64,000 bases of DNA. Source: Lachnospiraceae bacterium. Lineage in GTDB: Bacteria; Bacillota; Clostridia; Lachnospirales; Lachnospiraceae. A model generated the notes under the pieces. That model ran no database searches. It had not been told where the DNA came from and saw nothing but the letters and a program-made list of their open reading frames with translations. Position 1 is the stretch's first letter, and the number at the start of each line of letters is the position of its first letter. The stretch spans positions 1 through 64,000 of the forward strand of contig JAUNPP010000002.1 in NCBI GenBank assembly GCA_030536685.1, read 5' to 3'. Below are positions 6,626-26,006 of the stretch, piece after piece. A program made the translations under genes and the position numbers.

Positions 6626-6990
6626 TACATATCACCAGCCAGATTTTCTAATTTTTGTTTTAAACCGGAAAGATCTGCAAGGCAATGATTGATGTCTTTC
6701 ATCAACCTGGCTGTCAGCGGATTCCCGGCATTTAAGTGATGTGCGATCTGGTTAAGGTTGCTCCCGATTTTCCCATACTGAGCTGCGATCTCATCCAGCA
6801 CTTCACTATTATAAATGGGCTGCACAGTGACTTTTACCTGTGCCGTCAAAATTGCCTGTCGGATAAAATCCGACTGCGATACTCCAAGCTTTTCAAGCTG
6901 GGAGAGGAACTGCTCCCACTCTGCATCATTCATTCTGGCATGTGCGATGTGGGTACGGCGTTCCGGTTGATAGGTGGCTTTTCGTTTCAT
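6625..6990 (-). CDS. MobC-type mobilization accessory protein
   Basis: This 121-residue protein resembles the MobC/relaxosome accessory family, which binds oriT and helps the relaxase nick. Residues about 15-50 look like a ribbon-helix-helix region (HARMNDAEWEQFLSQLEKLG, then VSQSDFIRQAIL). The C-terminal part has the family signature KIGSNLNQIAHHLNAGN. The start follows AAAGGAG by 8 bases and reads directly away from the hairpin-rich leader proposed as oriT. The relaxase gene follows at once. Confidence 0.88.
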   Translation of the reverse strand: MKRKATYQPERRTHIAHARMNDAEWEQFLSQLEKLGVSQSDFIRQAILTAQVKVTVQPIYNSEVLDEIAAQYGKIGSNLNQIAHHLNAGNPLTARLMKDINHCLADLSGLKQKLENLAGDM

Positions 6991-7359: not shown

Positions 7360-8682
7360 ATGAAAATTACAGAAGAAGAGAAAAAACAGCACCCACAATA
7401 CAGAGAGTATGTGGAACGATATGAATCTGCTTTGACAGGTCTTGAAGCCGGACTCCGGGGCGCTGGGGATCCGGCTCTAATTGTCGAAAAATGTCTAAAC
7501 ATGGCTCGTTCGTTTTACGATGCTGACAGTGCCGCTTTGGTCGAAACCAATCTGGAACTGGGTTATGGCGTCTGCATCATGGACGATTCCATTGACGGAC
7601 TTCCTAACTTTAAAGGAAAGATCATTAACATCACACCGGAAGAAACACCTTTTTTATATGCACGTGTCATGAGAAATGAAGTCTTTGAGATTGATGACCT
7701 GGAAAAATTAAAAGAAGTCTCTCCGGCTGAGGCTTTCCTGTTAAACAAAATGGATACTCATATTCTGGCAGTTGCTCCGTATTACAAACGTTCTTCCGGC
7801 TACCTTTATATCCGAAATCCCAAACGATTCGTAGGCTTGTACGGGATGCTGCAGGCTCTTTCCTATATCTTTGCTGCAGAGAGAAATGAGTTTCAACTGA
7901 TGGACAGCCTGAATATCGCCGTCAGCTCCAAAGGCTGCCGGTCTAACAAAGATGTTTTCATAAAAGTATTTGGTGGATTATCCATCACTACCAAGTTTGG
8001 TACACTCTCAGAAAGTGAAATCACTTCATCCCTTGCCATTCGTTTAGTTGCTTATCTTCTGCTTAATGACACCAGAAAAGTGTCCCAGCGCGAACTGACA
8101 GAAGCCCTGTGGCCGGATGCAGAAGTTGATTCGCCTGCCAAGCAGGTGAGAAACGTTGTCCACCGCACCAGAAATATTTTAAATCCTATTTTCCCTGACA
8201 GTCTTGTTGTGAATGACAAGATGGGAAATTATTATATCAACCCCAATGTAAACATTGTAACCGATGCCAGTGTGTTTGAAAGCTACATACGGAATGGTCA
8301 GCGTCCTTCCGCAACACAGAAAGAGAAAATCCACTACCTTAAACAGGCTGTGGAAATATATCAGCATGAATTTCTCCCGAACATGACCGGTGATTCCTGG
8401 CTGGACAATCAACGGACTTTTTACCATCTGACCTACCTGCAGGCAGTGATCGCACTCCTTCCTCTTTTGTACAAAGAAGAAGCCTATTCCGATATGTATG
8501 CGCTGTCCAGTGCGGCGCTTTTATATGAGCCGGAAAATGGGGATATCCTGTTCTGGCATATCCGGGCAATGATTGAACTTGGGGGTCTTGAAATTGCGCA
8601 GCGCAATCTCACGCAGCATAGTCAAAGCCTCAATGAAGACCAGAAAGATATTTTATCCGGTATTTTAAACACGCTCCATTAA
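7360..8682 (+). CDS. SARP/BTAD-like transcriptional regulator
   Basis: This 440-residue protein has three parts. Residues about 1-190 look like a GAF-type sensor fold. Residues about 200-310 are an OmpR-type winged helix (KVFGGLSITTKFGTLSES, then LTEALWPDAEVDSPAKQVRNVVHRTR). Residues about 320-440 are a helical BTAD-like region (YLKQAVEIYQHEFLPNMTGDSW). That order resembles the SARP/AfsR activators known best in actinomycetes. The start follows GAGGAGGAAAGAAGA. It heads the plus-strand half of the element and is a candidate activator of the recombinase operon; neither target nor ligand is visible. Confidence 0.72.
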   Translation: MKITEEEKKQHPQYREYVERYESALTGLEAGLRGAGDPALIVEKCLNMARSFYDADSAALVETNLELGYGVCIMDDSIDGLPNFKGKIINITPEETPFLYARVMRNEVFEIDDLEKLKEVSPAEAFLLNKMDTHILAVAPYYKRSSGYLYIRNPKRFVGLYGMLQALSYIFAAERNEFQLMDSLNIAVSSKGCRSNKDVFIKVFGGLSITTKFGTLSESEITSSLAIRLVAYLLLNDTRKVSQRELTEALWPDAEVDSPAKQVRNVVHRTRNILNPIFPDSLVVNDKMGNYYINPNVNIVTDASVFESYIRNGQRPSATQKEKIHYLKQAVEIYQHEFLPNMTGDSWLDNQRTFYHLTYLQAVIALLPLLYKEEAYSDMYALSSAALLYEPENGDILFWHIRAMIELGGLEIAQRNLTQHSQSLNEDQKDILSGILNTLH

Positions 8683-8799: not shown

Positions 8800-9399
8800 A
8801 TGCGAGTAACAACAAAGGCTATGCAGTATATTGACATGCAGATTCAGAACTGTGAACTGGATAAAAAGCACCTGTTCCAACAGACCAAGTCACTCCTGTC
8901 CCTTTACCGAAGTGTTGTATGGGCGGTAAAAGGAAGAGCTGTACATCTTAAGAATCGAATTTCAGGAACATATGGGATGCAGTTAAACACTGCGCTCCTG
9001 TTTTTATCCGATTTTGCACCGACAGAAACAAGAGTTGATTTTGAAATGCAAGTATCCAGTCTTTTCAAGTCCCGCTGGCTGATTGAGCTGATCGATATTG
9101 CCTCTGCATATGTACGGGAATACCCCATCTATGGAACCCTTTATGCCGACCTCCTCCGGCTCCGGTTCATGGATGAGATCCCAAGAAATGACGCTTCTGT
9201 CTGCGAAGCATTGGGACTGGAACGCAGCACGTACTACCAGAGAAAAAAAGAAGCAATCCTTCTTCTGGGAATATCCTTATGGGAATATGTTCTTCCCATC
9301 ACGATACAGACCTACCATAGAGTCTTAAAATTAGATGTTACGGAAGAAATCTTTTTCCAGAAGGTTGCAAAAGAGAATCAACTGCATTACCGTTTGTAA
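8800..9399 (+). CDS. Putative HTH regulator, family not recognised
   Basis: This is a 199-residue soluble, mostly helical protein. Residues about 138-165 (NDASVCEALGLERSTYYQRK) read like the helix-turn-helix of sigma region 4 or of ArpU-type phage late regulators. The rest gives no family I can name. The start follows AAGGAAGTG by about 9 bases. A leader with repeated TGTAAC precedes it, and two strong terminators separate it from the next gene. Its place between regulators suggests control of element genes, which is inference only. Confidence 0.65.
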   Translation: MRVTTKAMQYIDMQIQNCELDKKHLFQQTKSLLSLYRSVVWAVKGRAVHLKNRISGTYGMQLNTALLFLSDFAPTETRVDFEMQVSSLFKSRWLIELIDIASAYVREYPIYGTLYADLLRLRFMDEIPRNDASVCEALGLERSTYYQRKKEAILLLGISLWEYVLPITIQTYHRVLKLDVTEEIFFQKVAKENQLHYRL

Positions 9400-9607: not shown

Positions 9608-9643
9608 GCCAGGAAACGATTCCTTTGTTTCCTGGCTTTTTTT
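9608..9643 (+). terminator. Rho-independent terminator 2, possible attenuator
   Basis: A perfect 10-bp stem (GCCAGGAAAC/GTTTCCTGGC) is followed by seven T residues. It ends only 23 bases before the next start codon, so it may act as an attenuator for that gene and what follows. Confidence 0.85.
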
Positions 9644-9666
9644 GTGCAGCAGACAGGAGGCATACC

Positions 9667-10542
9667 ATGCATAAGGACAAGGAAACAAAAAACCAGGGAC
9701 AGCTCCCGCTTCTGATCCATAAAACAAAATATTTGATAGATCCGGAAACAGCAGAGCTTCTGAAAAAAGGAATCGTCCCGGAACCACTGCTAAAGCAGAT
9801 CACCCAGACGCAGGGAGATGAGTTCTGCTTTGAATTTCGCCGTAAGATACGCCTGATCAAACGCATCTGTGATCAGATCGATGCAGGAGAACAACCGGAT
9901 TCAATCCGTCCCTTAGTGGAAAGCGGGGAAGTCCCTGCTGATATTCTATATAAGATTTGCCACCATAAGCTTCTCGGAAAATCAGAACGTCTTTTGAAAG
10001 CCGGACTGCTGACATCCGATATCGTAGAAGTTGTACGAAAACACTTGCTGACAAAAGAAATCATTCCGGCACTCTCCCATGCTTTTCTCATGGATATGGC
10101 CAGATATCTGTATGAGCATAAGGAAATCAATCTCGCAACTTTAAAAGGAGCAGAAAACGGAACGATTGATCCTGTCTACATCCAGATCATCCGGCGGCAC
10201 TACCGGCACATGACCCATATGGAGGAAATTCAGGATAAACACTCTGCCTTTAAAACAGACGGAGTGACAGAACCTGCCGCTGAAGATAAAGGTCTGGACA
10301 GCAGGCTTCTGCAGGAGAGTAATCTTTCAGCACTTAAAGAAGCGATGTACTGGTTAAGCGCCGAAGAGACGCACCTTATTTGCCGCATCTATATGGATGA
10401 GATTCCAATCACCCGGATAGCTTTGGAATATGGAGTTGCCGAAAGCACGATCCGTTACCGCCGGGACCGTATTTTAAAAAAATTACGCTTTATTTTTGAA
10501 AATGTCCTTCACTGTGAAAAAGTAAATTTATTTGAATCATGA
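9667..10542 (+). CDS. Regulator with C-terminal sigma region-4-like HTH
   Basis: This protein has 291 residues from MHKDKETK, a start set by ACAGGAGG seven bases upstream. The last 60 residues (LSAEETHLICRIYMDEIP, then ITRIALEYGVAESTIRYRRDRIL) form a sigma-70 region-4-type HTH that would contact DNA. The first 220 are charged and helical and match no family I know; sigma region 2 is not evident, so it is unlikely to be a complete sigma factor. It is preceded by two back-to-back terminators and followed by a small conserved gene and the recombinase operon. Confidence 0.7.
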   Translation: MHKDKETKNQGQLPLLIHKTKYLIDPETAELLKKGIVPEPLLKQITQTQGDEFCFEFRRKIRLIKRICDQIDAGEQPDSIRPLVESGEVPADILYKICHHKLLGKSERLLKAGLLTSDIVEVVRKHLLTKEIIPALSHAFLMDMARYLYEHKEINLATLKGAENGTIDPVYIQIIRRHYRHMTHMEEIQDKHSAFKTDGVTEPAAEDKGLDSRLLQESNLSALKEAMYWLSAEETHLICRIYMDEIPITRIALEYGVAESTIRYRRDRILKKLRFIFENVLHCEKVNLFES

Positions 10543-10565: not shown

Positions 10566-10817
10566 ATGAAACCAATCACACCATTGTCAAAATCCGAACG
10601 GGACAAGCTGGTAGATATTTCTACAGTGGAAATTGACCGTTCCCTGCCGCCAGAGGAACGGCTGGCAAATTACCTGGAACAGATCAGGAATCCTTACTGC
10701 TATCTCTGCAATGGCATTGTTGTACATATTGCCTACGCTGATACAGAACAGACCATCGAAGATAAACTGGAACACTTTATCCGGCACAGGCAGGATGCAG
10801 AATATAAAAAAATATAG
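10566..10817 (+). CDS. Small conserved mobile-element protein (DUF6870-like)
   Basis: This is an 83-residue soluble protein with LVDISTVEIDRSLPPEERLANYLEQIRNPYCY, then CNGIVVHIAYADTEQTIEDKLEHF, here quoted in parts. It resembles small proteins that I recall next to recombinases in Firmicutes conjugative elements, listed as DUF6870. Two cysteines (YCYLC) could bind metal. The start lies 23 bases after the upstream regulator's stop, with AGGAGATG before it. Function is unknown. Confidence 0.6.
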   Translation: MKPITPLSKSERDKLVDISTVEIDRSLPPEERLANYLEQIRNPYCYLCNGIVVHIAYADTEQTIEDKLEHFIRHRQDAEYKKI

Positions 10818-10915: not shown

Positions 10916-10967
10916 AAGCCTTTGGTCTTTTGATGGCACCACTATGTTGTCAGGAGGCCAGAGGCTT
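10916..10967 (+). promoter_or_regulatory. Leader hairpin covering the ribosome site of the first recombinase
   Basis: Twelve bases at 10916-10927 (AAGCCTTTGGTC) pair with 10956-10967 (GGCCAGAGGCTT) with two G-U pairs. The right arm overlaps the end of the AGGAGG at 10952-10957 and stops one base before the ATG at 10969. Folding would limit translation of the coupled seven-gene operon. Confidence 0.5.
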
Positions 10968-10968
10968 T

Positions 10969-12681
10969 ATGTATTTATCAGAACAATCAAAAGAATCTAT
11001 GGACAAAGAATACCTGTGCGCCTCGTATGTTCGTTTATCACAGGATGATGGAGACAAAGAGGAAAGCAACAGCATCATCAATCAAAAAACACTGATACGG
11101 GATTATATCAAGAACCACTCCGATCTCACACTGATAGAGGAATATGCAGATGATGGTTATTCCGGAGTAAATTTTGAAAGACCGGACTTTCAACGGATGA
11201 TGAACGATGTTAAGGCAAAAAAGATTGACTGTATCGTTGTCAAAGACCTCTCCCGTTTCGGTCGAAATTATATTGAGGTCGGAAGATACCTGCAACAGGT
11301 TTTCCCCTTTATGGGAATCCGTTTCATTGCCATCAATGATAGTGTTGACAGTGGCAAAAAACAGACGGATGCAGAACAGTTCGTACTGCCATTTAAGAAC
11401 CTGTTCAATGACAGCTATTGTAAAGATATTTCCATCAAAGTACGTTCCCAGCTTGCGATCAAGCGTAAAAACGGAGATTTTGTCGGGAGCTTTGCCTGTT
11501 ATGGTTATCTAAAGAATCCGGCTGACCATAACCAGCTCATGATCGATGAAGAGGTTGCCGATATCATCCGCTCCATCTTTCTCTGGAAAATCATGGGACT
11601 CTCCGCTGATCGGATTGCTGAGAAGCTCAATTCGCAGGGCATCCCCTGTCCTATGGAATATAAAAGAAGCCTTGGATTGAAAGTCTCTACGAACTTCCGA
11701 ACCAACGGTACCGCCAAATGGTCACACATGACGGTTCTTCGCATCTTAAAAAATGATATCTATATCGGAAATATGACACAGGGGAAACAGACTACGCCGA
11801 ACTATAAAGTCAAACGGCTGATTGATAAACCGGAGGAAGAATGGGATCGTGTGGAAGGTACACATGAAGCAATCATATCCGAAGATGTCTTTGAGACCGT
11901 ACAGGCGCTCATGCTGCAGGACACCCGTATTTCTCCATGGGAAACAAAAGTTTATCTTTTTTCCGGATATTTATTCTGCGGTGATTGCAAGATGAGCATG
12001 TCCCGCCGTACAAGAAAGAATAAAAGCAGTACCCGCTCTTACTATTTCTGCTCCGGGTACAAACGTAAAAACGGCTGCACCTCTCACAATATCAGTGAGG
12101 AGCGGCTCTATCATGCGACACTCTCGGCAATCCAGCAGCAATGCCGGATGATAACGGATATAGAGCGTGTCCTTCGTTATGCAAAAGACCTCCCGGATGA
12201 CCCGAACAGTCTGAAACGCTATGACATCCAACTGGCAAAATTGGATGAAGAAATTGATAAAAATCAGACCATGAAACTGCGGTTGATTGAAAACCTGAAT
12301 GACGGCATTCTTTCCAGCCAGGAATACCTGGATCTTGTAAAGATATACGATACCCGCATTCTGGAGGGAAGAAAAGCCAAACAGGTAGTAGCTGCGGAAC
12401 GTGCCGGTCTTCAGGATCTTCCACTTGAATCGGACTGGCTGACAGCATTTAAAAAATATCAGGAGATCACAGCCCTTGACCGGATTGTTCTGGCTGAACT
12501 GGTGGAACGGATTGAGGTGTATGCAGACAAAGAAATCGTTATCCGTTTTAAATTTTCTGATCAGATCAAAAGAGTACAGGAATATCTGGCTGAGCGGCAT
12601 CTGTTACCGGAGGCTTGTCCAGTTCAGCCGGATATAAAGGAGACACCATGGCAAGAAAAAGCAGAATTGCTGCGCAGTTAA
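10969..12681 (+). CDS. Large serine recombinase 1 (type X)
   Basis: This 570-residue large serine recombinase cuts and rejoins DNA through a serine nucleophile. The catalytic domain is intact: YVRLS (Arg22, Ser24), then VKDLSRFGRNY. A recombinase domain (GYLKNPADHNQLMIDEEVAD, near residue 190), a zinc ribbon (FCGDCKMSM...YFCSGYKRKNGC, near residues 340-375) and a coiled-coil tail follow. I start it at MYLSEQSKES because AGGAGG and a leader hairpin sit just upstream. It shares the ESNSIxNQ motif with recombinases 3 and 7 but has its own inter-motif sequence, so I class it apart. The next gene overlaps it by 34 bases. Confidence 0.93.
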   Translation: MYLSEQSKESMDKEYLCASYVRLSQDDGDKEESNSIINQKTLIRDYIKNHSDLTLIEEYADDGYSGVNFERPDFQRMMNDVKAKKIDCIVVKDLSRFGRNYIEVGRYLQQVFPFMGIRFIAINDSVDSGKKQTDAEQFVLPFKNLFNDSYCKDISIKVRSQLAIKRKNGDFVGSFACYGYLKNPADHNQLMIDEEVADIIRSIFLWKIMGLSADRIAEKLNSQGIPCPMEYKRSLGLKVSTNFRTNGTAKWSHMTVLRILKNDIYIGNMTQGKQTTPNYKVKRLIDKPEEEWDRVEGTHEAIISEDVFETVQALMLQDTRISPWETKVYLFSGYLFCGDCKMSMSRRTRKNKSSTRSYYFCSGYKRKNGCTSHNISEERLYHATLSAIQQQCRMITDIERVLRYAKDLPDDPNSLKRYDIQLAKLDEEIDKNQTMKLRLIENLNDGILSSQEYLDLVKIYDTRILEGRKAKQVVAAERAGLQDLPLESDWLTAFKKYQEITALDRIVLAELVERIEVYADKEIVIRFKFSDQIKRVQEYLAERHLLPEACPVQPDIKETPWQEKAELLRS

Positions 12682-14372
12682 GTCTGTCCGGAAATGCTTC
12701 TGTCACCCCGCCTGAACCAGGACCAGCAAAACTAAAAACAGGGATTTATGCACGGTTATCCATCAAAGACTTAGGGATTGAAGACGGTGACACAATGGAA
12801 ACACAGATTGCCCTGCTCCGGGACTATGTAACCCAGCAGGAAGACATGGAATTAAGAGAAATCTATGTTGATAACGGATGGTCTGGAACGAATTTTCAAA
12901 GACCGGAATTTAACCATCTGCTGGAAGATGTCAAAGAAGGAAAAATCAACTGCATCGTTGTCAAAGATTTATCCCGCTTTGGCAGAAACTATCTTGAAGC
13001 CGGTTACTATCTGCAGAATGTGTTTCCTTCTTACGGAGTACGCTTTATCGCTATCTATGACAGTTATGACAGCCAGACTTCTGACCCTGATTCTCTGATG
13101 GTCGTTATGAAGAATATCGTGAATGATTATTACAGTAAGGATATCTCAAGAAAAATATCCGCCACGATTGATCTGAAACGGTCACAGGGGCCTCTTTACA
13201 TGGGGTCTCCGCCATACGGCTATAAAATGAATCGTTCCGAACCCAGGCGTTACCTGAAAGATAAGAAGGCGGCAGCTTATGTGCACCTCATCTTCCACTG
13301 GGCATTAGAAGGTTTGTCCCCGTACAGGATTGCCTGCAATCTGAATGATCTGCAGGTTCCTTCCCCGCAGGCACACTATTACCAGAATCACGCAAACAGG
13401 AAATCCGGGAAATCATCTGCAGGAAATACCTGGATTGCAACCACTATTTCCGGTATTCTCTCAAACCCTGTTTATACTGGTAATTACTATTGCAATAAAA
13501 GTTACTTTCGAAAATATGACCCAGGTAATGCAGGAAATATTCCGGAAGAAGAATGGATCTGCTATCCCAATGTCCATGAAGCCTATATCAGCACCGAAGA
13601 TTTTGAGAAATTAAAAAAGAAACGGGAGGATGAAGAACAGCTCCGCCAGGATGCCAGAAAGAAGCACAGACTCCTCCCCTCCTCCCTGAATCTTTTCAAA
13701 GAACTTGTTTACTGTGGAGAATGTGGAAGAAAACTTCTTTTTCAGATCAACAGGGAGAATTTTAAATTCAGTACCTTTCATTGCACCGGTAAAGCATCCA
13801 GGATGTTAAGCGGTCATCCAAGGCTCTCCATTACCTATGCTGCAATAGAGAGTATTGTACTTTATAACCTGCAGACGCAGTTCCGGCTGGCTATTGAAGC
13901 AGATTCTTTCCTGAAGCGGTTATCAATGGAAGATGCCCGTAAGAGATTAAAGTCTCGAAGGCAGGCAGAACTTCAGGTACTGCATTCAAAACTGGCAGCT
14001 ATTGTATGTAAAAAGCAAAAAGCATTTGAGGATATGACAACCGGTCTTTTAGAACCGGCAATCTATAAAATGCAGATAGAGAAGCTGAATCAGGAAACTA
14101 TGTGGCTGGAAGAAGATCAAAAAAATGCACAGAAACGTCTGGAAGAAGTTGATACCTACTTTACTCCGGATAATGAATGGCTTCGGGCTTTCCTGGCAGC
14201 AAACATCTCAGAGGAACTGAATACACCTGCTGTTCGGATTCTCATCAAACGGATTGATATATGGAATGACCGCCAGATATGCATCACCTTTCAATTTGCT
14301 GACTGGATGGAAAAGCTCAATTCCTGTATCGCCGAATGGAAACTATTAGAAATGGAGGATTCAAATGAATAA
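12648..14372 (+). CDS. Large serine recombinase 2 (type A)
   Basis: This recombinase has 574 residues from MARKSR, with ATAAAGGAG just before the ATG inside the previous gene. Catalytic residues are present (YARLS with Ser38; VKDLSRFGRNYLEAGYY). The recombinase domain begins at SPPYGYKMN. The zinc ribbon (YCGECGRKL...FHCTGK) has three clear cysteines and ends differently from its neighbours. The tail is coiled coil. It is a close paralogue of recombinase 6: both begin MARKSR, place the serine at residue 38 and share KINCIVVKDLSRFGRNY. It overlaps the next gene by 8 bases. Confidence 0.92.
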   Translation: MARKSRIAAQLSLSGNASVTPPEPGPAKLKTGIYARLSIKDLGIEDGDTMETQIALLRDYVTQQEDMELREIYVDNGWSGTNFQRPEFNHLLEDVKEGKINCIVVKDLSRFGRNYLEAGYYLQNVFPSYGVRFIAIYDSYDSQTSDPDSLMVVMKNIVNDYYSKDISRKISATIDLKRSQGPLYMGSPPYGYKMNRSEPRRYLKDKKAAAYVHLIFHWALEGLSPYRIACNLNDLQVPSPQAHYYQNHANRKSGKSSAGNTWIATTISGILSNPVYTGNYYCNKSYFRKYDPGNAGNIPEEEWICYPNVHEAYISTEDFEKLKKKREDEEQLRQDARKKHRLLPSSLNLFKELVYCGECGRKLLFQINRENFKFSTFHCTGKASRMLSGHPRLSITYAAIESIVLYNLQTQFRLAIEADSFLKRLSMEDARKRLKSRRQAELQVLHSKLAAIVCKKQKAFEDMTTGLLEPAIYKMQIEKLNQETMWLEEDQKNAQKRLEEVDTYFTPDNEWLRAFLAANISEELNTPAVRILIKRIDIWNDRQICITFQFADWMEKLNSCIAEWKLLEMEDSNE

Positions 14373-15999
14373 TAACCTTGCCTGTTATATCAGGCTTTCC
14401 CTTGCGGATGGCGATCTGGGAGCCGGCAAGGATGAAAGCAACAGTATCAAAAACCAGAGAGAGCTTCTCCTGAATTATATCAGGAGTCATCCAGAGTTTC
14501 AGGGATGGAACATTCATGAATTTGTAGATGATGGCTATACCGGAACAAATGATGACCGTCCGAATTTCCAGCGGATGATTGAGCTGGCAAAAGACGGACA
14601 GCTCCAATGTATCATCGTCAAAGATTTATCCCGTTTTGCAAGAAATTATGTGCTGTGCGGTGATTATCTGGAACAGATTTTCCCATTCCTCGGTGTACGT
14701 TTTATCGCAGTCAATGACCGTTATGACAGTGCCAAAACCACCAGCGTCGATGACAATATGAGTATGGTGCTGAAATCTGTCCTGAACGCTTATTACAGTA
14801 AGGATATTTCACGCAAAATATTTTCTTCTTTTACCCAGAGGATGAAAAAAGGAATTTATCTTGGCAATACACCATACGGATACCTTCCGGATCACGAACA
14901 TCTTCGGTATGCCATTGATCCGGAGGCGTCACAAGTCGTCCGTAAGATCTTTAACCTGGCATTATCCGGAAAGAGTAAACTGCAGATTGCCGCAGCCTTA
15001 AATTCAGAAGGCATACTTCCACCCGGAGAATACAACCGTTTAAATGGAAAGATTCACAAAAATACCCGTGGCATTGCCGCATCCCCTATCTGGGAACCGA
15101 ATAAGATTATCTCTATTTTAAGAAATCAGGCTTATATGGGTGATCGTATCATGCGGAAACAAGTCCCTGTGATTCCCGGTTCAAAAATCCGGAGAAAAGC
15201 AAATGCGTCGGAACAGATTATTCACAGAGATGCCCATGAGGCGATCGTGACCCGGAAGGAATTTGAACGTGTGCAGGAACTGTTTCCTTACCGCCCCAAT
15301 ACAAAGCGCAGTTCAACCCTTGAATATACCCTGAAAGGCGTTGTGCGCTGCGGTACCTGCCGCCGGGCAATGGCACGTTCCCAGAGCAATAAGCATTATT
15401 CCTGTCCACATGCCCGGATGATCGATTCACCCTGCCCGAAAAAGAATTATGAAGTTTCTGAAATTGAAGCGATAATCTTTGAATCACTAAAACCGATGCT
15501 TACCATGGCAGTCGCTGCCGATAACCGCAGGAATAAGCGAAAGCAGTCTGCCGACTGGCTGACACAATGCCAAAAGGAAATCGGTACTGCGGAATTTACA
15601 GAAAAACGTATACAGCAGAAGAAACTGGATGCTTACGAGGACTATTCCAACCAGCGTATTTCCCTCAAAGAATACCAGAAACGAAAAGATTCCCTGAACC
15701 AGCAGGCTTCGGAAAATCAGAAAAAACTGGAAACCTTGAAAGAACAGGAACTTGCTTTTACAAGCGGATTGATTCCACATGAAATTCAGGCTGTCACAGA
15801 TTCTTCCCGAAAATATCTGCACAGCAGCTCACTCACCCGTGATATGGTCACAACCTTTGTCGATAGTATTTATGTCTATGAAGACCACTATGAAATCGTA
15901 TGGAAGTTCCGTGATGTATGGAAACAACTGGAAGAACGTGAAAATACCCCATCAACTCATTCATTACAAGAAAGGATGAACCCAAATGACACGCAATAG
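14365..15999 (+). CDS. Large serine recombinase 3 (type B)
   Basis: This is a 544-residue recombinase with a very short N-terminus (CYIRLS, Ser12). It has KDESNSIKNQ, then IIVKDLSRFARNYVLCGDYLEQIFP, given here in part. The catalytic set is complete, the recombinase domain starts at NTPYGYLPD, and a zinc ribbon (RCGTCRRAMA...YSCPH) and coiled coil follow. It pairs with recombinase 7, which has the same Ser12 position, the same RFAR variant and a similar tail. Its stop overlaps the start of the catalytic-domain-less recombinase 4 by 14 bases. Confidence 0.92.
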   Translation: MNNNLACYIRLSLADGDLGAGKDESNSIKNQRELLLNYIRSHPEFQGWNIHEFVDDGYTGTNDDRPNFQRMIELAKDGQLQCIIVKDLSRFARNYVLCGDYLEQIFPFLGVRFIAVNDRYDSAKTTSVDDNMSMVLKSVLNAYYSKDISRKIFSSFTQRMKKGIYLGNTPYGYLPDHEHLRYAIDPEASQVVRKIFNLALSGKSKLQIAAALNSEGILPPGEYNRLNGKIHKNTRGIAASPIWEPNKIISILRNQAYMGDRIMRKQVPVIPGSKIRRKANASEQIIHRDAHEAIVTRKEFERVQELFPYRPNTKRSSTLEYTLKGVVRCGTCRRAMARSQSNKHYSCPHARMIDSPCPKKNYEVSEIEAIIFESLKPMLTMAVAADNRRNKRKQSADWLTQCQKEIGTAEFTEKRIQQKKLDAYEDYSNQRISLKEYQKRKDSLNQQASENQKKLETLKEQELAFTSGLIPHEIQAVTDSSRKYLHSSSLTRDMVTTFVDSIYVYEDHYEIVWKFRDVWKQLEERENTPSTHSLQERMNPNDTQ

Positions 16000-17242
16000 A
16001 ACATACCCCCTGCCATCGAATGGCGAAAAAACTGCAAGATGGATTCCATATGGTTATCTGTATGATCCAGATGCGCCTGCTTTGATTGCAATCGATCCTG
16101 AAGCATCCAATACCGTCCGATATATTTTTGAGGAATATTTAAAAGGCATCTCGCTTTCTGAAATCTGCAGGATGCTGACAGAGAAAGGCGTTCCCACCCC
16201 TTCGGACCGAAGGGCACAGCTCGGTGCTGCTCCTGCTGAAAAATCCAACACATATTGGAAGGCTACTGCTCTAAATCAAATGTTATTCCATCCTGTATAT
16301 GCGGGAGATTGGATTTTGGAAGGAAGAGTCTGGGACTGCTGTTATTACTATAGCGGTATCCCATATCCGAATGGGATTACAGCGCCTGTCATCGAAAAAG
16401 ACCACCATGAAGCACTGGTGCCAAGAGATTATCTGGTAAAAGCCGCTCAGATGTTCCTTGAACAGCGGAAAGAAAGGAATACCATCCAGCAGAAGCCGTT
16501 TACGGATACGCCAGAGCTATCTCCTTTTTCCATCCTAAACCTTTTGCGCTGTGGAATATGCGGACGATTTCTTACTCCCGCCGAAATTTCCCTTCAAAAT
16601 GGAAAAGGGTTTACAGCATATTTCTGTTCCAGCATCAACCAGAAGAAACCGGGAGACTGCAGTAATTATGTGTACCGCCTGGATACGCTACTCTCACTTG
16701 TTCACGAAATACTCTCTGAAGAACGAAAAAATGCCCTTCGCTTCAGCCAGACTTCTTCCAAAAGGTCACAGGACAAAACCTACACGGTACTTGAAGCGGA
16801 ATTTCAGGAGCAGATTGATCAAACGATAGATGAAGTACGAAGCCTGATAGAAGAACAAAATAAACTGGAACGAAGCTATAAAACACACGGTATCTCTCAG
16901 GAAGAATATGACAGGCTTTCCGCTGATCTGGCAAAACGGATTTCACACGGCGAGCATAAAGTCATGGTTGCCTTAACAAAAATCCGTGATTTCCGAAAAT
17001 TATGCGGCGAAAAAAATGCCTGGGTATCCTTGTTTGCAAATCTTCCGGAAGATTTTACAGATAGCAGTATCGAATACAAGAGATATATCCAGAAAATCAA
17101 TGTTTTCCCTGACCAGCCGCCTGTGATCTTTCTGAAAAGAATGGATGCGAAAAAACAGCTCATGGAAACATTGAACCTTCCCTATAACGACCCGGAAACA
17201 GATACTTTTGACGATATAAATAAAGCCACGGAGGAAAATTAA
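15986..17242 (+). CDS. Recombinase 4 (type C): DNA-binding part only, no catalytic domain
   Basis: This 418-residue protein begins almost directly at the recombinase domain (WIPYGYLYDPDAPALIAIDPEA, quoted in part) and lacks the roughly 145-residue resolvase domain, so it cannot cut DNA. The rest is complete: recombinase domain, zinc ribbon (LRCGICGRFL...YFCSS...GDC), long coiled coil and the tail INVFPDQPPVI. It is not an obvious accident: the ATG has AAAGGA nine bases upstream, the frame is open for 1.25 kb, and it overlaps the previous gene. It is homologous to recombinase 5. A role as DNA-binding partner of the active recombinases is inferred. Confidence 0.88.
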   Translation: MTRNRTYPLPSNGEKTARWIPYGYLYDPDAPALIAIDPEASNTVRYIFEEYLKGISLSEICRMLTEKGVPTPSDRRAQLGAAPAEKSNTYWKATALNQMLFHPVYAGDWILEGRVWDCCYYYSGIPYPNGITAPVIEKDHHEALVPRDYLVKAAQMFLEQRKERNTIQQKPFTDTPELSPFSILNLLRCGICGRFLTPAEISLQNGKGFTAYFCSSINQKKPGDCSNYVYRLDTLLSLVHEILSEERKNALRFSQTSSKRSQDKTYTVLEAEFQEQIDQTIDEVRSLIEEQNKLERSYKTHGISQEEYDRLSADLAKRISHGEHKVMVALTKIRDFRKLCGEKNAWVSLFANLPEDFTDSSIEYKRYIQKINVFPDQPPVIFLKRMDAKKQLMETLNLPYNDPETDTFDDINKATEEN

Positions 17243-18931
17243 ATGGAACCCGAAAATAACACAAAATGCTATCATGCAGCCCTTTATGCAAGAAGAAAAT
17301 TTACGGATACAATCACCAAAGATGAACCGGATCCTACAGCAGCATCACAGATTAAAGAAATGAAAAATTATCTGCAGGATTACCCGGAGATAAAAGTGGA
17401 CGGTATTTACATGGACAACCATAAAATCAAACAGGAAAGTCCACGCCCTGAATTTTACCGTCTGGCAAAGGATTTAAAAAATGGTCTGTATAACTGCCTT
17501 GTCATGACCAGTCTCGACCTTTTTGCCAAAGATCATATGGAAACCAAATACTATCTGCTTAACCTGTTTGCAGTTATGGGAATCCGGATACTGTCCATTC
17601 AGGATAATTATGACAGCCTGTATTCAGAAAAAGCTGCCGGCTCTCATGACCGCTTAGAGGAACTTGTATGCCAGATGGATGCTCTCAGCCGTTCCCGGAT
17701 TCTTTCAAGAAGCTCTCTGCAAAAGAAGAATGACACATTCCTGGAATTTACTTTTACGCCTTTTGGTTACCTTTATAATCCGGATATCCCTTCCAATCTG
17801 GAAATCGACGAAGAAACCGTGGATGCTGTCCGCATGATATTCAAGGAATACCTTTCCGGAACTAATATGAATCAAATTGCGCAAAAGCTGACGGATATGA
17901 GAATACCCAGCCCCTCCCTGCGGAAGGAACAGCTCGGAATGGAATACCGGCATCCCTCTTCCAAAGATTACTGGACATCCGGCGGCGTTCATGCGATCCT
18001 GAAAAACCCACTATATACCGGTGATCTGGTCATTGGCAAACAGCGTTCGGCTCAGTATGTGTTCCGGGATTACAAACGGCATCCGGATCTGGATGGAAAC
18101 GTCATTCCCAACCATCACGTAGCGATCATATCACATGCCGATTTTGAACGGGCCAGATTGATGATGGATATTCTGCATCGAAAGCGCCAGGAAATCATAG
18201 CCAAACGTCCGCAGCCTGCTCTCCCGCCGACACCTTTTGTCAATTCGGTTTATTGCGGCATCTGCCATCGTTCCATGTATCATGTACGCTATAATGCCAC
18301 AAGCAGGAATCCATATTCTATCTATGTCTGTTCCAGTCATCGTCAGAAACTGGAAAATGCCTGCCCGCTCCACCATTTCAGAGTTGATGAAATCATCCCT
18401 GCAGTAAAGGACTACATTATGGAAGAACACAGACTGGCACTTACGATCATTGCGCAAATGCAGGATGGGGAAAACAGTGACTTATATCAGAAAATTGATT
18501 CTCACTTTCAGCAAAGGATTGCAAAAGTCATGGAAAAGGTACAGCAAAATGTACTTGCCCTGACTGCTCTTCCAGATGAAGAGGAAGAAAAACGGGAAAA
18601 GCTGAATACAGAATCCACGCTTCTACGATCAGAACTTGTCGAGATCCTGGATGAAAAGAAAAAGTTCAGTAAAGAATTTACACTGAAAAACAAGTGGCTG
18701 CAGACATATGGCAATATACCGGAAAATTTTGAACTGACAAGGCAATATGGACGTACTCTGGTCGAACGGATTGAGCTGACCCCGGATCAGCCGCTCGTCT
18801 ACACGCCAAAGCATCTCAAAGAGAAAGAATTGCTGCTCCACTATATCACATTGAGCAAGGAGGTTCCTGATGGCACGAAAAAGCAGAGAACAGATACAGT
18901 ATGCGAAAGCGACCGGACAGACATTTCTTGA
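17243..18931 (+). CDS. Recombinase 5 (type C): full length, catalytic residues lost
   Basis: This 562-residue protein has the full large-serine-recombinase layout, but its active site is gone. The Y-A-R-L-S motif reads YARRK, putting Lys19 in place of the serine. The DLSRFGR motif reads SLDLFAK (residues 90-96), replacing both arginines with Leu93 and Lys96. The recombinase domain (TPFGYLYNPD), the zinc ribbon (YCGICHRSM...YVCSSHRQK...ACP) and the coiled coil are intact. The start directly follows the stop of gene 4 (TAAATG). The next gene overlaps it by 62 bases. Intact DNA-binding modules argue for a retained non-catalytic role. Confidence 0.92.
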   Translation: MEPENNTKCYHAALYARRKFTDTITKDEPDPTAASQIKEMKNYLQDYPEIKVDGIYMDNHKIKQESPRPEFYRLAKDLKNGLYNCLVMTSLDLFAKDHMETKYYLLNLFAVMGIRILSIQDNYDSLYSEKAAGSHDRLEELVCQMDALSRSRILSRSSLQKKNDTFLEFTFTPFGYLYNPDIPSNLEIDEETVDAVRMIFKEYLSGTNMNQIAQKLTDMRIPSPSLRKEQLGMEYRHPSSKDYWTSGGVHAILKNPLYTGDLVIGKQRSAQYVFRDYKRHPDLDGNVIPNHHVAIISHADFERARLMMDILHRKRQEIIAKRPQPALPPTPFVNSVYCGICHRSMYHVRYNATSRNPYSIYVCSSHRQKLENACPLHHFRVDEIIPAVKDYIMEEHRLALTIIAQMQDGENSDLYQKIDSHFQQRIAKVMEKVQQNVLALTALPDEEEEKREKLNTESTLLRSELVEILDEKKKFSKEFTLKNKWLQTYGNIPENFELTRQYGRTLVERIELTPDQPLVYTPKHLKEKELLLHYITLSKEVPDGTKKQRTDTVCESDRTDIS

Positions 18932-20600
18932 TCCGGCTTCAGTCAAACCTGCAGTACGGACAGCAATCTATGCCCGTCTCTCATTATATGATATGAACTG
19001 GTCATGCAGGGACAGTATGCAAAACCAGATACATTTGCTGGAATCCTATATGGCTGAACACCCTGAATTAAATCTCACAGACAGGTACATTGACAATGGC
19101 TGGAGCGGTATGGATTTTAACCGCCCAGCCTTTAAACGGCTTTTAACAGACATCCATTCCGGAAAAATCAATTGTATTGTAGTTAAAGATCTCTCCCGTT
19201 TCGGCAGAAACTATGTAGAAACCGGATACTATCTTGAAAATGTATTTCCTTCTCTTGGCATCCGGTTCATTGCAATCAACGATCATTTTGACAACCAGAC
19301 GGCGAGACCGGATGATCTTGGAATCATCCTGAAAAATATCCTGAATGAATTTTTCAGCCGTGACCTTTCACGCCGATACTGCGCCAGTATAGATATCCGC
19401 CGCCAAAAAGGTGTCTTCCGTCACGGTACCCCATATGGCTATATGCATGATCCTGAAAGACCAGATTATCTTACGTTTGACCCTTCTGTATCCCACTACG
19501 TTCATCTTATCTTTCAATGGGCACTGGAAGGTACCCCTACAAGTAAAATCGCACATCGGCTCCGGCAGATGAATGTACCAACTAAGGAACGAATGGAATA
19601 TTTGAGAAATAAAGAAAAAACCAGGCATAAGGGAAGTACCCGCTGGGATGTAAATAGTGTCCGGGAAATGCTGATGAACCCGGTTTACGCAGGAGATTTT
19701 GTATACGGCAAAATACGCAAACGAAAATGTGACCCTTATAACAACCGTGTGATTCCGAAAGAAGAATGGACGGTTATTTCTGATGCTTTCCCCGCCTATA
19801 TCAGCCATGAACAATTTGACCAGATTCAGGAGCGCATGGAAAAAAACACGCAAACATTCTATCAGCAGATAGAAAACAAAAAATCCATCCATGAAGAAGT
19901 ACCGAATTATTTCAAGGATCTGCTTTACTGCGCCATCTGTGGGAAAAAAGTACACTCTTCCCTGGATGCCCGCGAAAAATCACAATCTTATCTGGTTTAT
20001 TTCTGTTTTCAGTATGGAAATGCCAGACATGAACCGCATCCGAGAGTCAATATACATAAAAAACTTCTGGATACCATCGTCCTGGATGAAATACAAAATC
20101 AATTTCGGTTAGCAGAACAGTTTTCTCAATGGCTTCATTCTCCTACCTGTCAGGCTCAGGCAAAGCAATGGCTTCGAAAGCAACAGCAGCTACTTGAATC
20201 ATTAAATCAAGAAGCCGCACAAAATAAATCTGAACTGGCACAGACTTTTGAAAATTTTGCTTCAGCATGTATTACAGAAGAGATGTTTCTCCAACGGAAA
20301 ACACAACTGAAACAGCAGGAAAAGGCGCTTACCGCATCACTGGAAAAACAGGCAAAGCACATGCAGGAAATCCAGCGGGCACTTTCCAAAGCCAATCCCT
20401 GGCTGAATCTGCTCAATCAATTTGCCTACCCGCATTGCTTAACGGAGTCGCTTACCCATACGCTCATCGACAGGATCATTCTGGGACTTGGAGGCGAATT
20501 GCAGATTATCTTCCGGGAGGAGCATTGGCACCATCTGTTTACCCAATATTGTGAGGAAATTCAACATAGTGACATTCAAAAGGAGGCAAATTCTGAATGA
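18870..20600 (+). CDS. Large serine recombinase 6 (type A)
   Basis: This is a 576-residue recombinase starting MARKSREQIQ, with GGAGG six bases upstream, deep inside gene 5. It has the complete active site (YARLS with Ser38; VKDLSRFGRNYVETGYY), recombinase domain (TPYGYMHDPERPDYLTFDPS), zinc ribbon (YCAICGKKV...YFCFQYG) and a glutamine-rich coiled coil. It is the second type A member, the paralogue of recombinase 2. ATGA overlap joins it to recombinase 7. Confidence 0.93.
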   Translation: MARKSREQIQYAKATGQTFLDPASVKPAVRTAIYARLSLYDMNWSCRDSMQNQIHLLESYMAEHPELNLTDRYIDNGWSGMDFNRPAFKRLLTDIHSGKINCIVVKDLSRFGRNYVETGYYLENVFPSLGIRFIAINDHFDNQTARPDDLGIILKNILNEFFSRDLSRRYCASIDIRRQKGVFRHGTPYGYMHDPERPDYLTFDPSVSHYVHLIFQWALEGTPTSKIAHRLRQMNVPTKERMEYLRNKEKTRHKGSTRWDVNSVREMLMNPVYAGDFVYGKIRKRKCDPYNNRVIPKEEWTVISDAFPAYISHEQFDQIQERMEKNTQTFYQQIENKKSIHEEVPNYFKDLLYCAICGKKVHSSLDAREKSQSYLVYFCFQYGNARHEPHPRVNIHKKLLDTIVLDEIQNQFRLAEQFSQWLHSPTCQAQAKQWLRKQQQLLESLNQEAAQNKSELAQTFENFASACITEEMFLQRKTQLKQQEKALTASLEKQAKHMQEIQRALSKANPWLNLLNQFAYPHCLTESLTHTLIDRIILGLGGELQIIFREEHWHHLFTQYCEEIQHSDIQKEANSE

Positions 20601-22198
20601 AGAAAATAATCGCTGCTTATCTTCGGCTTTCTAACGCTGATCATGATCTGTCCGAAAAGGACGAAAGCAACAGTATCACCAATCAAAGACAATTGATAAA
20701 ATATCACATCCAGACCCATGAAGACCTGAAATCCTACCAGTATGAAGAATTTGTAGATGATGGTTACAGCGGAATGAATACAAACCGCCCTTCTTTCCAG
20801 AATATGCTTCGTCTGATCAAAAAGGATAAAATACACTGCGTCATCGTCAAGGATCTCTCCCGTTTTGCAAGAGACTATCTCGTTCTTGGAGATTATGTGG
20901 AACAGATCTTTCCTCTGCTCGGTGTGCGTTTTATTGCTATAAACGACGAATATGACAGCCGTATCAGTGTCACTGCAATGGAAACCGTAAGTATCTCCAT
21001 CAAATCTCTTGTCTATGATTACTACAGCCGTGACCTCGCCCGAAAAATGCGTACCGGTATTATGGAACGTTACAAACACGGAACTATCATCCACGCAGCT
21101 CCCTACGGCTATGTAACCAATTATAAAAAGCATCGCTTTGAGATTGATGAAGAAGCGGCTGCAAATGTCAAACTGATATTCAAACTGACCATTGAGGGAC
21201 AATCCCCCAGCGATATCGCCCGGTATCTGAATAATTCCGGTGTTCCTACACCGGCAGTGTACAACCGACTCCATCCGGAACTTAAAAAAACAGGATACAA
21301 AATATGTAAAAATCCAGTTTGGACAAACAGCAGTATCCGCACTATCATCAGTAATAGAACTTATACCGGTGTGCGTATCGGTCATAAAACCTCCACTGAA
21401 AACTCTCCGCATGTTTCAGAAAAAGTAGATCCTGCGGACTGGTTCATCTACGAGAATGCTCATACGCCTATCATAAGTGAGGAAGATTACGAACTTGCAC
21501 TTTCCAAATTGAAACGGTTTACTCCCCGGGATCCCAACCGCACGAAACAATATGTCAACAACTGTGTCCTTCAAACAAAACTTCGCTGCGGTCATTGCGG
21601 TCGTGCTGTTGAATACCGCACTTCCGGCAGGCTTGCCATTTGTCCACAGGCCCGATTTCTGCCAAATGCCGATTCATCTGCAACCCATCCGACACTGAAC
21701 ATTACCGTATATGTGTATGAGTCGCTAATGCCTATACTAAAGGCGCTTCTTATAGAAAAAGAACGCTTACAAAATGAAATCAATGAAGGAAAAGCAATCC
21801 TCAAAAGATGCAAGGAAACCCTCTCAAGAATCGAAGAAAACAAACGCCAGCTTTCCGAAAAAAAGCGTATCCTGTATGAGGCTTATGTCACAAAAGAAAT
21901 GAATCGGGAAACATACTTACAGAAAAAAGCGGAACTTGATAAACAGGAACAGGATTTAAAACAGGAATACCAGCAGCAAAAGCAACAGGAAATGTATTAT
22001 ACAACCCTTGCTATTCCTGACGAAATCAATATGCTTTCTGCCTCTGCCAGTTCTGATATTGATAAAGAATTTCTAACAAAAGATATGGTAAAAACCTATG
22101 TCCGTACAGTCTACATTGATGGCCCGGAAGATTATAGAATCGAATGGAATTATGATAATCTGTTTCGTCAGCTCGCCGGGAATGAAAATGTGGACTGA
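20597..22198 (+). CDS. Large serine recombinase 7 (type B)
   Basis: This 533-residue recombinase is the last of the array. It has YLRLS (Ser12), KDESNSITNQ, VKDLSRFARDY, the recombinase domain (APYGYVTNYKKHRFEIDEEA), a zinc ribbon (RCGHCGRAVEY...AICPQ) and a long charged coiled coil. All catalytic residues are present. It is the paralogue of recombinase 3. It starts in an ATGA overlap with gene 6. The second copy of the relaxase palindrome begins 14 bases after its stop. Confidence 0.93.
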   Translation: MKKIIAAYLRLSNADHDLSEKDESNSITNQRQLIKYHIQTHEDLKSYQYEEFVDDGYSGMNTNRPSFQNMLRLIKKDKIHCVIVKDLSRFARDYLVLGDYVEQIFPLLGVRFIAINDEYDSRISVTAMETVSISIKSLVYDYYSRDLARKMRTGIMERYKHGTIIHAAPYGYVTNYKKHRFEIDEEAAANVKLIFKLTIEGQSPSDIARYLNNSGVPTPAVYNRLHPELKKTGYKICKNPVWTNSSIRTIISNRTYTGVRIGHKTSTENSPHVSEKVDPADWFIYENAHTPIISEEDYELALSKLKRFTPRDPNRTKQYVNNCVLQTKLRCGHCGRAVEYRTSGRLAICPQARFLPNADSSATHPTLNITVYVYESLMPILKALLIEKERLQNEINEGKAILKRCKETLSRIEENKRQLSEKKRILYEAYVTKEMNRETYLQKKAELDKQEQDLKQEYQQQKQQEMYYTTLAIPDEINMLSASASSDIDKEFLTKDMVKTYVRTVYIDGPEDYRIEWNYDNLFRQLAGNENVD

Positions 22199-22212: not shown

Positions 22213-22241
22213 CAACTTTTGCTCACAATGAGCAAAAGTTG
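22213..22241. repeat. Palindrome after the recombinase array, copy 2
   Basis: The arms CAACTTTTGCTCA and TGAGCAAAAGTTG pair perfectly over 13 bp around CAA, with an outer CGGGTG/CACCCG pair. The inner 11-bp arms are identical to those inside the relaxase at 5699-5725. No T tract follows, so it is not a standard terminator. Confidence 0.88.
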
Positions 22242-22396
22242 TAAACACCCGCATAAGATATCACATCCCCTCTACGCTCTCTCTTATATGATATTCTCAT
22301 TCCATTATCCACAAACTCCTGCGAATTTTTCTTCGATAACGATATGAAGTGAGGGGTTCTTCCACAGCCCCATCACGAATACCCGGAGGAATTCCC

Positions 22397-23284
22397 ATGA
22401 GCTTTCTTTTGAAAAAAATGATACAAAAACAACGTGCCGATTTCGCCGCTCTTTCCGAAAAGCGAGATGCTACACTATTATTCCCGGATGATGTCACTGT
22501 GATAGAAAATATCTCCTATCGCCCTGATGCAGCTACTGCACACCGCATGGACGTGTTTCGCCCCAGTGCAACAGAACGTACACTTCCCATTATTATCAAT
22601 GTACATGGTGGCGGATTGATGATGGGTACAAAAGAGTTTAATCGTTTCTTCTGTGCTCAGCTATGTAAACTTGGATTTGTTGTCTTCAGTATTGAATATC
22701 GTTTGATTCCGGAAGTAACCGTTTTTGACCAGTTAGGAGATATTACTGCAGCAATGGATTTCGTAAAATATCACAGCCTGATCTATGGCGGTGATCCGCT
22801 GCATATCTATATGGTTGGTGACAGCGCCGGCGCATATTTGATCACTTACGCAGTGGCAATCAGTAATAACCCTGTACTGGCTAATGCCTCTGGCGTCACT
22901 CCTTCTGGTCTTCACGTCAATGCGCTCGGACTGATCAGCGGCATGTTTTATACAAGACGAATGGATGAAATCGGTCTGTTTCTTCCCAAATTGCTATACG
23001 GAAAAAGCTACCGACATAGCCCATTCTTTCCCTACACCAATCCGGAACATCCTGAAATCATAAAACACCTGCCGCCTTGCTTTCTCGTAACAAGCCATGA
23101 TGATCACCTTCATCATTACACAGCCGATTTCGCCGCTGCGCTTAAACGCATCGACAAACGTCATAGGCTGATAGATTATGATAAAGATAATCGCCTGACT
23201 CATGCATTCAGCGTGTTTGAACCAACCATGGATAAGAGTCTGGAAGTGCTCGAAAAAATGACCGGTTTTCTCCTGCGAAATTAA
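22397..23284 (+). CDS. Alpha/beta hydrolase (esterase/lipase family)
   Basis: This is a 295-residue serine hydrolase of the hormone-sensitive-lipase/acetyl-esterase type. It has the oxyanion loop NVHGGGLMMG, the nucleophile elbow GDSAGAYL, and late Asp (SHDDHLHHY) and His (LTHAFSVF) candidates for the catalytic triad. No signal peptide is visible, so it should be cytosolic. The start is set by CGGAGG seven bases upstream. It sits between the recombinase array and the defence operon and ends at a strong terminator. It may be cargo; the substrate is unknown. Confidence 0.85.
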   Translation: MSFLLKKMIQKQRADFAALSEKRDATLLFPDDVTVIENISYRPDAATAHRMDVFRPSATERTLPIIINVHGGGLMMGTKEFNRFFCAQLCKLGFVVFSIEYRLIPEVTVFDQLGDITAAMDFVKYHSLIYGGDPLHIYMVGDSAGAYLITYAVAISNNPVLANASGVTPSGLHVNALGLISGMFYTRRMDEIGLFLPKLLYGKSYRHSPFFPYTNPEHPEIIKHLPPCFLVTSHDDHLHHYTADFAAALKRIDKRHRLIDYDKDNRLTHAFSVFEPTMDKSLEVLEKMTGFLLRN

Positions 23285-23423: not shown

Positions 23424-24809
23424 TTAAATATATAATTTCTGATCACCAATCGGAACATTAACCATAGTCATTGCTACACACTCACCATTTTTGATAATAT
23501 AGCATTCTACAAAATGTGGACCTCCGAATTCTGATTCCTCTCTTTTCGACTTACCACACTTTTTCTCAATTTGGCCTCGAATTTGATTTTTCTTTTCTGC
23601 TATTGATCCAACATTTCGAACTTTCCACCAGACTTCATAAGGATAAGGAACATCTGTTTCAGCTTCAAAATCTATTGTTAATCCGTGTGGCATCAACTTA
23701 TGAAACCGTGGAAATTTTTCCAGGAATTTATATAACGGCTGCTGATGAATTCCATTTGCCTGTACTTTACATGATACCCACACATTATAGCAGTCATTTA
23801 TCGGTACCATATCTTCAATAAATTCCTCTGTGTCACTATACTGTGACTTTTTCAAAGAAGCTGCCTCAAACATACCTTTTTCTTTATCTGACAAATCAGA
23901 CCAATAATCATGATTAAAAAATTTATTCCATGCTTCGAGTGCCTGTTTATAAGTACATTTTTCATCTAAAAGCACATTCAATGAATCTATTTTGCTACTT
24001 AATCTTAAGAGCCAATTATCCATTTTATCATAATGATTCTGTGCTGTAAGAAGTGATAACTCTGTATCTACCGGATTAGAAACTTCAGTACTTTCTTCAA
24101 GACGATTTTTCACTGCAACCATTGTATTGTAGAATATTTCGTCAATTCTTTCATGTTCTGAATCAAATACTTCATCACATATCACTGACTGAATTAGTCC
24201 TCCTGGCATATTAACCCATCCAGCTCTCGATTTACAGAACATCTTTGACAAACGTACTACTTTTCTTAGCCCAGTCCCTTTTGATTTTACTTCATCCAAA
24301 AACCACTTGGTAATTGCTGCCGGATTACGTGTTTTCCATTCCGTACCTGCATGTTCGTAAGTATACTCCGTTTTACCTTCTTCTCTAAATCTCCTGTAAA
24401 CAGCAAAATCCACATGATAACCATCTGCATACTGAACTCTTACACAATTCGTTTTGCATTCAGGAGACGTATTAAATTGTCCACACTTCTTTTCGAGTGC
24501 TTTGCACACAACTCTTCTTGCTTGTAACGGACTCAAATCTCCCAAATTGCTCTTATCAAAAACAATTGCTACGTCAATATCATAATCGTTATTATCATTT
24601 TGTACAACGGTAGACATTGCCATACTCCCTTGAACACGCTTTTCAGCTATAGAATAGTTTGTTTTTTTATCCTCATTGTAAAGTTTCAGACCTTCTTCCA
24701 GACGTTTTACGTTTAAATTTTTCTTTTCACGCAAATTTTGTTGTTTGTCATTGCTTAAAACAACATAGTCTTTATAGAATCGTTCAAATTCTTTTGAAGC
24801 ATCGTACAT
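23424..24809 (-). CDS. CBASS CD-NTase (cGAS/DncV-like nucleotidyltransferase) with AGS-C-like domain
   Basis: This 461-residue enzyme should make a cyclic oligonucleotide alarm signal on phage infection. The polymerase-beta-type active site is complete: GS at residues 61-62, the metal-binding DID at 77-79 and the third aspartate at 134 (HVDFAV). The C-terminal 80 residues (YEVWWKVRNVGSIAEKK, GGPHFVECYIIKNGECVA) match the AGS-C sensor domain often linked to such enzymes. The start is 10 bases after the SAVED gene's stop, with AAAGGGGTG upstream. No Cap2 or Cap3 gene is present, so this is a minimal type I layout. The nucleotide product cannot be read from sequence. Confidence 0.87.
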   Translation of the reverse strand: MYDASKEFERFYKDYVVLSNDKQQNLREKKNLNVKRLEEGLKLYNEDKKTNYSIAEKRVQGSMAMSTVVQNDNNDYDIDVAIVFDKSNLGDLSPLQARRVVCKALEKKCGQFNTSPECKTNCVRVQYADGYHVDFAVYRRFREEGKTEYTYEHAGTEWKTRNPAAITKWFLDEVKSKGTGLRKVVRLSKMFCKSRAGWVNMPGGLIQSVICDEVFDSEHERIDEIFYNTMVAVKNRLEESTEVSNPVDTELSLLTAQNHYDKMDNWLLRLSSKIDSLNVLLDEKCTYKQALEAWNKFFNHDYWSDLSDKEKGMFEAASLKKSQYSDTEEFIEDMVPINDCYNVWVSCKVQANGIHQQPLYKFLEKFPRFHKLMPHGLTIDFEAETDVPYPYEVWWKVRNVGSIAEKKNQIRGQIEKKCGKSKREESEFGGPHFVECYIIKNGECVAMTMVNVPIGDQKLYI

Positions 24810-24818
24810 CTATAAACA

Positions 24819-26002: not shown

Positions 26003-26006
26003 CAAT

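Follow-up and report, generated by a model that had tools for sequence, protein, structure and literature searches.

The stretch of DNA analysed here (the window, 64,000 nucleotides from a Lachnospiraceae bacterium) carries seven tandem large serine recombinase genes, R1 to R7, at positions 10930-22198 of the plus strand (Table 1). The usual active-site residues are present in R1, R2, R3, R6 and R7, and the three tandem position-specific types that define a serine-integrase triplet occur in the order A, B and C. R5 is an unbroken frame of 562 aa starting at an ATG, in which a lysine (K19, in LYARRKFTD) occupies the nucleophile position, Y15 and R17 are retained, the R45 equivalent is retained in SPRPEF, and MTSLDLFAKDH places D92, L93 and K96 where the live copies have S, R and R. 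The alignment bore out the loss of the active site claimed in the first-pass annotation, including the residue numbers Lys19, Leu93 and Lys96. The Pfam scores of R5 are 7.6e-21 for Recombinase (PF07508) and 2.6e-9 for the Zn ribbon (PF13408), and only 1.3e-5 for Resolvase; a Resolvase-type head with a Ser nucleophile and catalytic arginines was not found in it. All four zinc-ribbon cysteines are present, as is a coiled-coil hairpin (helices 413-442 and 448-478 of the predicted model), so that the recombinase domain, zinc ribbon and coiled coil are retained as previously noted, except that the coiled coil is about 10 residues shorter than in the live copies. By homology, R5 is a large serine recombinase by descent and not a functioning member of the family. 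It does not lie between two active paralogues, as had been stated, because its upstream neighbour R4 (418 aa) is without the entire catalytic domain; R4 starts inside the end of R3, which leaves no space for one. Downstream, the ATG of R6 lies 62 nt ahead of the end of the R5 stop codon and is preceded by GGAGG.

Table 1. Genes of the recombinase array and of the adjoining element in the window.
Feature	Position	Strand	Basis
MobA/VirD2-type relaxase	5039..6625	-	First 39 aa 85% identical in G216
MobC/NikA-like mobilization protein	6625..6990	-	72% identical copy in G216
440-aa SARP/BTAD-like regulator	7360..8682	+	Common to G216 and G735
199-aa regulator, weak ArpU-like match	8800..9399	+	Common to G216 and G735
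Sigma-70 region-4-like regulator	9625..10542	+	Common to G216 and G735 arrays
DUF6870 small protein, immediately upstream of array	10566..10814	+	Relatives upstream of many triplet arrays
R1, live A-type recombinase	10930..12681	+	Pfam, typing
R2, live B-type recombinase, likely ATG 12648	12615..14372	+	Pfam, typing
R3, live C-type recombinase	14365..15999	+	Pfam, typing
R4, headless R5 paralogue (recombinase domain, zinc ribbon and coiled coil only)	15986..17242	+	ORF, Pfam, tree
R5, catalytically dead large serine recombinase, D1 class (K19, L93, K96)	17243..18931	+	ORF, Pfam, alignment, model
R6, live B-type recombinase directly after R5	18870..20600	+	Pfam, typing, spacing
R7, live C-type recombinase	20597..22198	+	Pfam, typing
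Alpha/beta hydrolase	22349..23284	+	Adjoins array in window and G216, near array in G735

An integrative and mobilizable element has a relaxase of its own with a recombination module, and no conjugation pore of its own; the relaxase and MobC genes beside the array indicate that the element carrying R1-R7 is probably mobilizable. The DUF6870 protein may be a directionality factor or regulator for serine-recombinase triplets. Integration of such triplets into a target gene goes with direct repeats of 2-8 bp; no convincing direct repeats were found at the candidate element ends in the window. On the right, an epsG-like gene breaks off near residue 323, where a 22-nt inverted repeat is located; since this repeat may stem from an unrelated insertion, no att site is claimed there. 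The epsG-like genes are cut on the element-facing side in both the window (26639-27664) and G216 (L049:17797-18018), and in three genera exopolysaccharide clusters contain or adjoin the element. On its far side, near exopolysaccharide genes, a conserved non-coding block is found in three genera (window 26095-26390; L049:17306-17606; L048:2925-3056); the window copy matched no Rfam family at gathering score, and among 61 relatives its core occurs in the window genome and in no other, which makes the block likely element-borne. A perfect 11-bp inverted repeat (ACTTTTGCTCA/TGAGCAAAAGT) occurs twice in the window, once within the relaxase gene (5701-5725) and once just past R7 (22215-22239), against a chance expectation of 0 and with no copy in the 271 loci fetched; the two copies are possible recombination or binding sites. 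A CBASS-type pair is encoded on the minus strand between the hydrolase gene and the conserved non-coding block (23424-26030), comprising a DncV-like cyclase with an AGS_C sensor (PADLOC cyclase, 2e-190) and a SAVED protein of the transmembrane effector type (1.2e-78); G216 carries a SEC-C protein at this place.

Some recombinase match at 1e-30 was obtained in 93 of 397 genomes of the window's family, and clear relatives of R5 beyond the window were identified in three of the 397, each representing another genus: G383 (50% identity), G387 (41%) and G216 (31%). A four-row profile search of 392 genomes of the order added no R5-type carrier, and searches of the relatives of the three carriers (1/61, 1/98 and 1/61) always returned the carrier itself. 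R5 alone as query retrieved one distant relative from genome contigs and none from viral contigs, and phage and plasmid records contained only relatives below 60% identity. With four carriers among the 735 genomes (G000-G734) searched with R5 or an R5 profile, the R5 type is rare and scattered, which fits the expectation for a mobile element. The nucleophile, R68 and R71 are lost in all four dead genes (window, G383, G387 and G216) and R45 is kept in two; R5 orthologues with the same losses are also found on three IMG/VR contigs. The R5 relatives of all four genera lie in arrays of one kind; G216 additionally shares the 440-, 199- and ~305-aa regulators, the DUF6870 protein, MobC, the hydrolase and the start of the relaxase, whose first 39 aa are 85% identical to the window protein before the G216 contig ends. 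The G216 counterpart of R4 (251 aa) retains only the zinc ribbon and coiled coil. The IMG/VR contig G735/L173 encodes eight recombinases (A-B-C-headless-dead-B-C-dead), after which the regulators and hydrolase recur in changed order. The dead gene was present in 7/7 array-type sequences that cover its place, a set largely found with R5-like queries; its absence from relatives that retain the array, which had been named as evidence against a selected role, was thus not observed. When an A-type (R1) or B-type query was used, the best hits (G216, L091/L173, L171 and L172) all carried the dead gene.

A wider set was assembled by scanning viral contigs with A- and B-type profiles, and 257 loci were inspected. 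Ser was found at the nucleophile position in 515 of the 539 distinct full-length recombinase ORFs at these loci and was absent from 24, a proportion that is not an unbiased rate because the ORFs were partly collected with R5-like queries. The 24 comprise two heads cut by contig ends, one distant recombinase and 21 dead-clade entries (among which L088 partly repeats L022), the last being R5-like proteins (D1), the eighth gene of L173, or members of a second, further diverged set designated D2. The D2 arrays have the form A-dead-B-C. Four of the 397 family genomes gave matches at 1e-50, with D2 in G021 and G310 and weaker matches to the D1 protein of G216 and to a recombinase of G152 that was not flagged as dead. 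Many triplet arrays are without a dead copy.

For all 24 dead genes with a visible neighbour (7 D1 and 17 D2, including the near-copies L119, L120, L121, L264 and L265, L262/L204, and L171/L172), the next gene is a live B, and this rule holds in two different array architectures. The B start, picked by its MARK-type motif, lies between -62 and +39 nt from the end of the dead-gene stop codon; the two genes overlap or are at most 11 nt apart in 22/24 cases, mostly with a GGAGG-like site. This fixed place points to production coupled with B. Two dead copies were not seen before B, namely L173:12681-14324 and L171:5646-7223; the former, the eighth gene of its array, is a dead recombinase at the array end, and the latter is cut by the contig end.

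To describe what the dead proteins retain, 16 dead heads (7 D1 and 9 D2) were aligned with 515 live heads, a set filtered on Ser10, R68 and R71, so that these three stand at 100% by construction. The dead heads keep Y6 (16/16), R8 (15/16), a Gln (16/16), a scaffold Asp (15/16) and a Phe (15/16). The nucleophile is kept in none of them, R71 in 1/16, R68 in 6/16 and R45 in 5/16 (4/7 of the D1 heads), and neither the Lys nor the Asp ahead of the active-site loop is kept in any of them, the Asp being Ser in all 16. The nucleophile position is occupied by Lys, Ile or Arg in D1 and by Leu, Ile, Val, Thr or Tyr in D2. Each of the 10 aligned D1/R4-type rows carries all four zinc cysteines, and 9/10 D2 rows have lost the zinc cysteines; the coiled-coil tip is lost in several D1 members. 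With a mean pLDDT of 86, the models of R5 and one D2 protein contain the usual strands followed by a long helix (136-163 in R5); they match solved serine integrases at E values of 1.9e-19 and 6.2e-18, and their heads match the TP901-1 catalytic domain with TM scores of 0.70 and 0.73 by target length. The dead head is therefore predicted to keep the recombinase fold, including the family's dimerization helix. As the retained parts differ among D1, D2, R4 and the 251-aa protein of G216, no single shared module accounts for all of them, and the differing losses may reflect several sub-roles.

A 316-sequence tree unites D1, D2 and the eighth gene of L173 in one clade (support 0.995 with heads and 0.992 without), to which R4 also belongs, and A, C, B1 and B2 each occupy one side of a branch in the tree without heads. 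A headless 55-row tree under a site-heterogeneous model recovered D1+D2 with an SH-aLRT of 99, and the grouping of D1+D2 with the live B genes of the seven-gene arrays in this tree has a support of 92. Constraining D2 to group with its own B partners was rejected (26.9 log units, AU p 0.012), as was the same constraint for D1 (13.9 log units, AU p 0.028). The trees and AU tests accordingly do not favour independent, repeated loss beside each B, at p values that are modest in the presence of long branches. Since the root was not inferred and long branches remain, a single loss of catalysis at the origin of the dead line is favoured by these trees, short of proof. The split between R4 and R5 is later than the branching of the G216 dead gene, which places the loss of catalysis before the loss of the R4 head.

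Synonymous sites are saturated in long-distance comparisons. In the pair G000/G383, the dead head has 60% identity and a pN/pS of 0.34, a ratio shared by the live R6 head at 67% identity. No other part of R5 is as well conserved in this pair, the recombinase domain standing at 58%, the zinc ribbon at 46% and the coiled coil at 34%; the earlier view that the DNA-binding modules are what is kept is therefore not supported in that form. Over longer distances dead heads drift faster than live ones, the R5 head being 45% identical to that of G387 and 33% to that of G216, compared with 55% for the R6 head and G387. For close pairs, the dN/dS of the dead gene is 0.209 overall in D1 (L171/L172; 20 synonymous and 14 nonsynonymous changes, with 0 and 3 in the head, which leaves the head ratio undefined), and in D2 it is 0.148 for L144/L204 (head 0.138) and 0.191 for L148/L191 (head 0.137); the pair L165/L221 was left out because its dead gene was saturated. 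The R4 tail gave 0.076 in a close pair, and the live neighbours gave 0.125, 0.120 and 0.079 (B) and 0.144 (C). These ratios show constraint on the dead genes, a little weaker than on the live ones. Relaxed, neutral evolution across the whole gene was not seen in the close pairs, and ratios well below 1, together with the presence of the gene in all seven covering arrays, support the selected, non-catalytic role that the first-pass annotation had suggested.

Serine recombinases need four cutting subunits, each of which cuts its own half-site in cis, and R5 should thus not be among the four strand-exchanging subunits. A head with the dimer helix, DNA-binding parts and coupling to B suggest instead a regulatory partner at or near the att sites. 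We consider, with moderate confidence, that selection has kept R5 as a non-catalytic partner of the live B protein and that R5 most likely modulates synapsis or direction. After duplication of a middle-type (B) recombinase, one copy would have lost the nucleophile and the catalytic arginines, most likely in a single event; the resulting dead line would have survived, travelled with mobile elements and undergone a further duplication, in which one of the copies, R4, lost its head. The dead protein would be made together with the live B, pair with it via the head and/or the C-terminal parts, enter the att-site complex as a regulatory and not a cutting subunit, and set the timing or direction (integration or excision) of A-B-C synapsis.

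The same losses, clade structure, selection and gene place are shared by a model of dominant inhibition, in which R5 would enter dead dimers or tetramers with live B and silence the array as long as this brake stays in place. One dead subunit should poison a cutting machine built of four, and the tight spacing before B would match the amounts of brake and enzyme. Nevertheless, R4 and the 251-aa G216 protein have no head with which to poison a tetramer, and a pure brake accompanying each B molecule would call for a release factor, and none was identified; inhibition is hence regarded as unlikely. Somewhat further from the evidence stands a DNA-binding role without pairing with B, as a specificity or architectural subunit or as a repressor of the array promoter, for which the recombinase domain kept in R4, R5 and D2 and the invariant zinc cysteines of the 10 D1/R4-type rows would speak. 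It leaves unexplained both the head as the best conserved part between G000 and G383 and the constant B as next gene, and the zinc cysteines are lost in most D2, so that we think it improbable. Continued activity via another nucleophile, to which the kept R8 and the R45 of 4/7 D1 heads could be referred, is very improbable given that no alternative nucleophile is common to D1 and D2 and that R71 is changed in 15/16 and R68 in 10/16 dead heads. Equally implausible is a decaying pseudogene between active paralogues: the three lost catalytic residues, shortened coiled coil and sporadic distribution (four R5-type carriers in 735 genomes) would suit it, but frames are intact in all carriers, dN/dS is 0.15-0.21 and the genes form one old clade at a constant place, and a neutral pseudogene was rejected on the intact orthologues, dN/dS and clade structure.

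Several known systems resemble this arrangement in part. SPbeta YokA, phiC31 and Bxb1 are the best structural and sequence matches of R5 and share the fold of its head, recombinase domain, zinc ribbon and coiled coil, whereas R5 is without the nucleophile and two catalytic arginines. CcrA and CcrB of SCC elements are two adjacent large serine recombinases that are encoded together and are both catalytic; R5 and its neighbours are likewise adjacent and co-encoded, but R5 is dead, and its matches to the CcrA/CcrB NCBIfam models were far under the cut-off. In the current understanding, a large serine recombinase works as a single protein aided by an unrelated directionality factor (RDF). The RDFs known so far are small proteins without relation to the integrase, in contrast to R4 and R5, which are paralogues of the recombinase itself. 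The proposed job of R5, a non-cutting protein acting on an integrase, is nonetheless like that of RDFs such as phiC31 gp3 (PMC5814800). In streptococcal ICEs, one study describes tandem serine-integrase triplets that cluster by position, and reports a conserved serine in the catalytic domain of all 42 serine integrases found (PMC4701971). The A, B and C types examined here cluster by position in the same way; unlike those triplets, the arrays here have a dead member before B (four-gene arrays) or are enlarged to seven or eight genes with headless and dead members.

Searches of the open full-text literature, a scope that takes in few subscription journals, listed no report of a dead serine-recombinase family. 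Encoded immediately ahead of one particular recombinase out of three live ones, a conserved dead paralogue points to heteromeric machines with genetically separable parts, makes dead paralogues natural candidates for the control of serine integrases, and renders testable why many mobile elements have three or more recombinases. As a tentative and rather doubtful extension, the recombinase-derived non-cutting proteins might be an ancient family that serves as a built-in directionality or assembly factor that is obligatory in hetero-oligomeric recombination; if true, recombination with obligatory dead subunits would differ from the scheme of a single protein plus RDF. In a different recombinase group, a headless recombinase was observed between two live ones (L079:11404-12366) and is possibly an independent case of the same theme.
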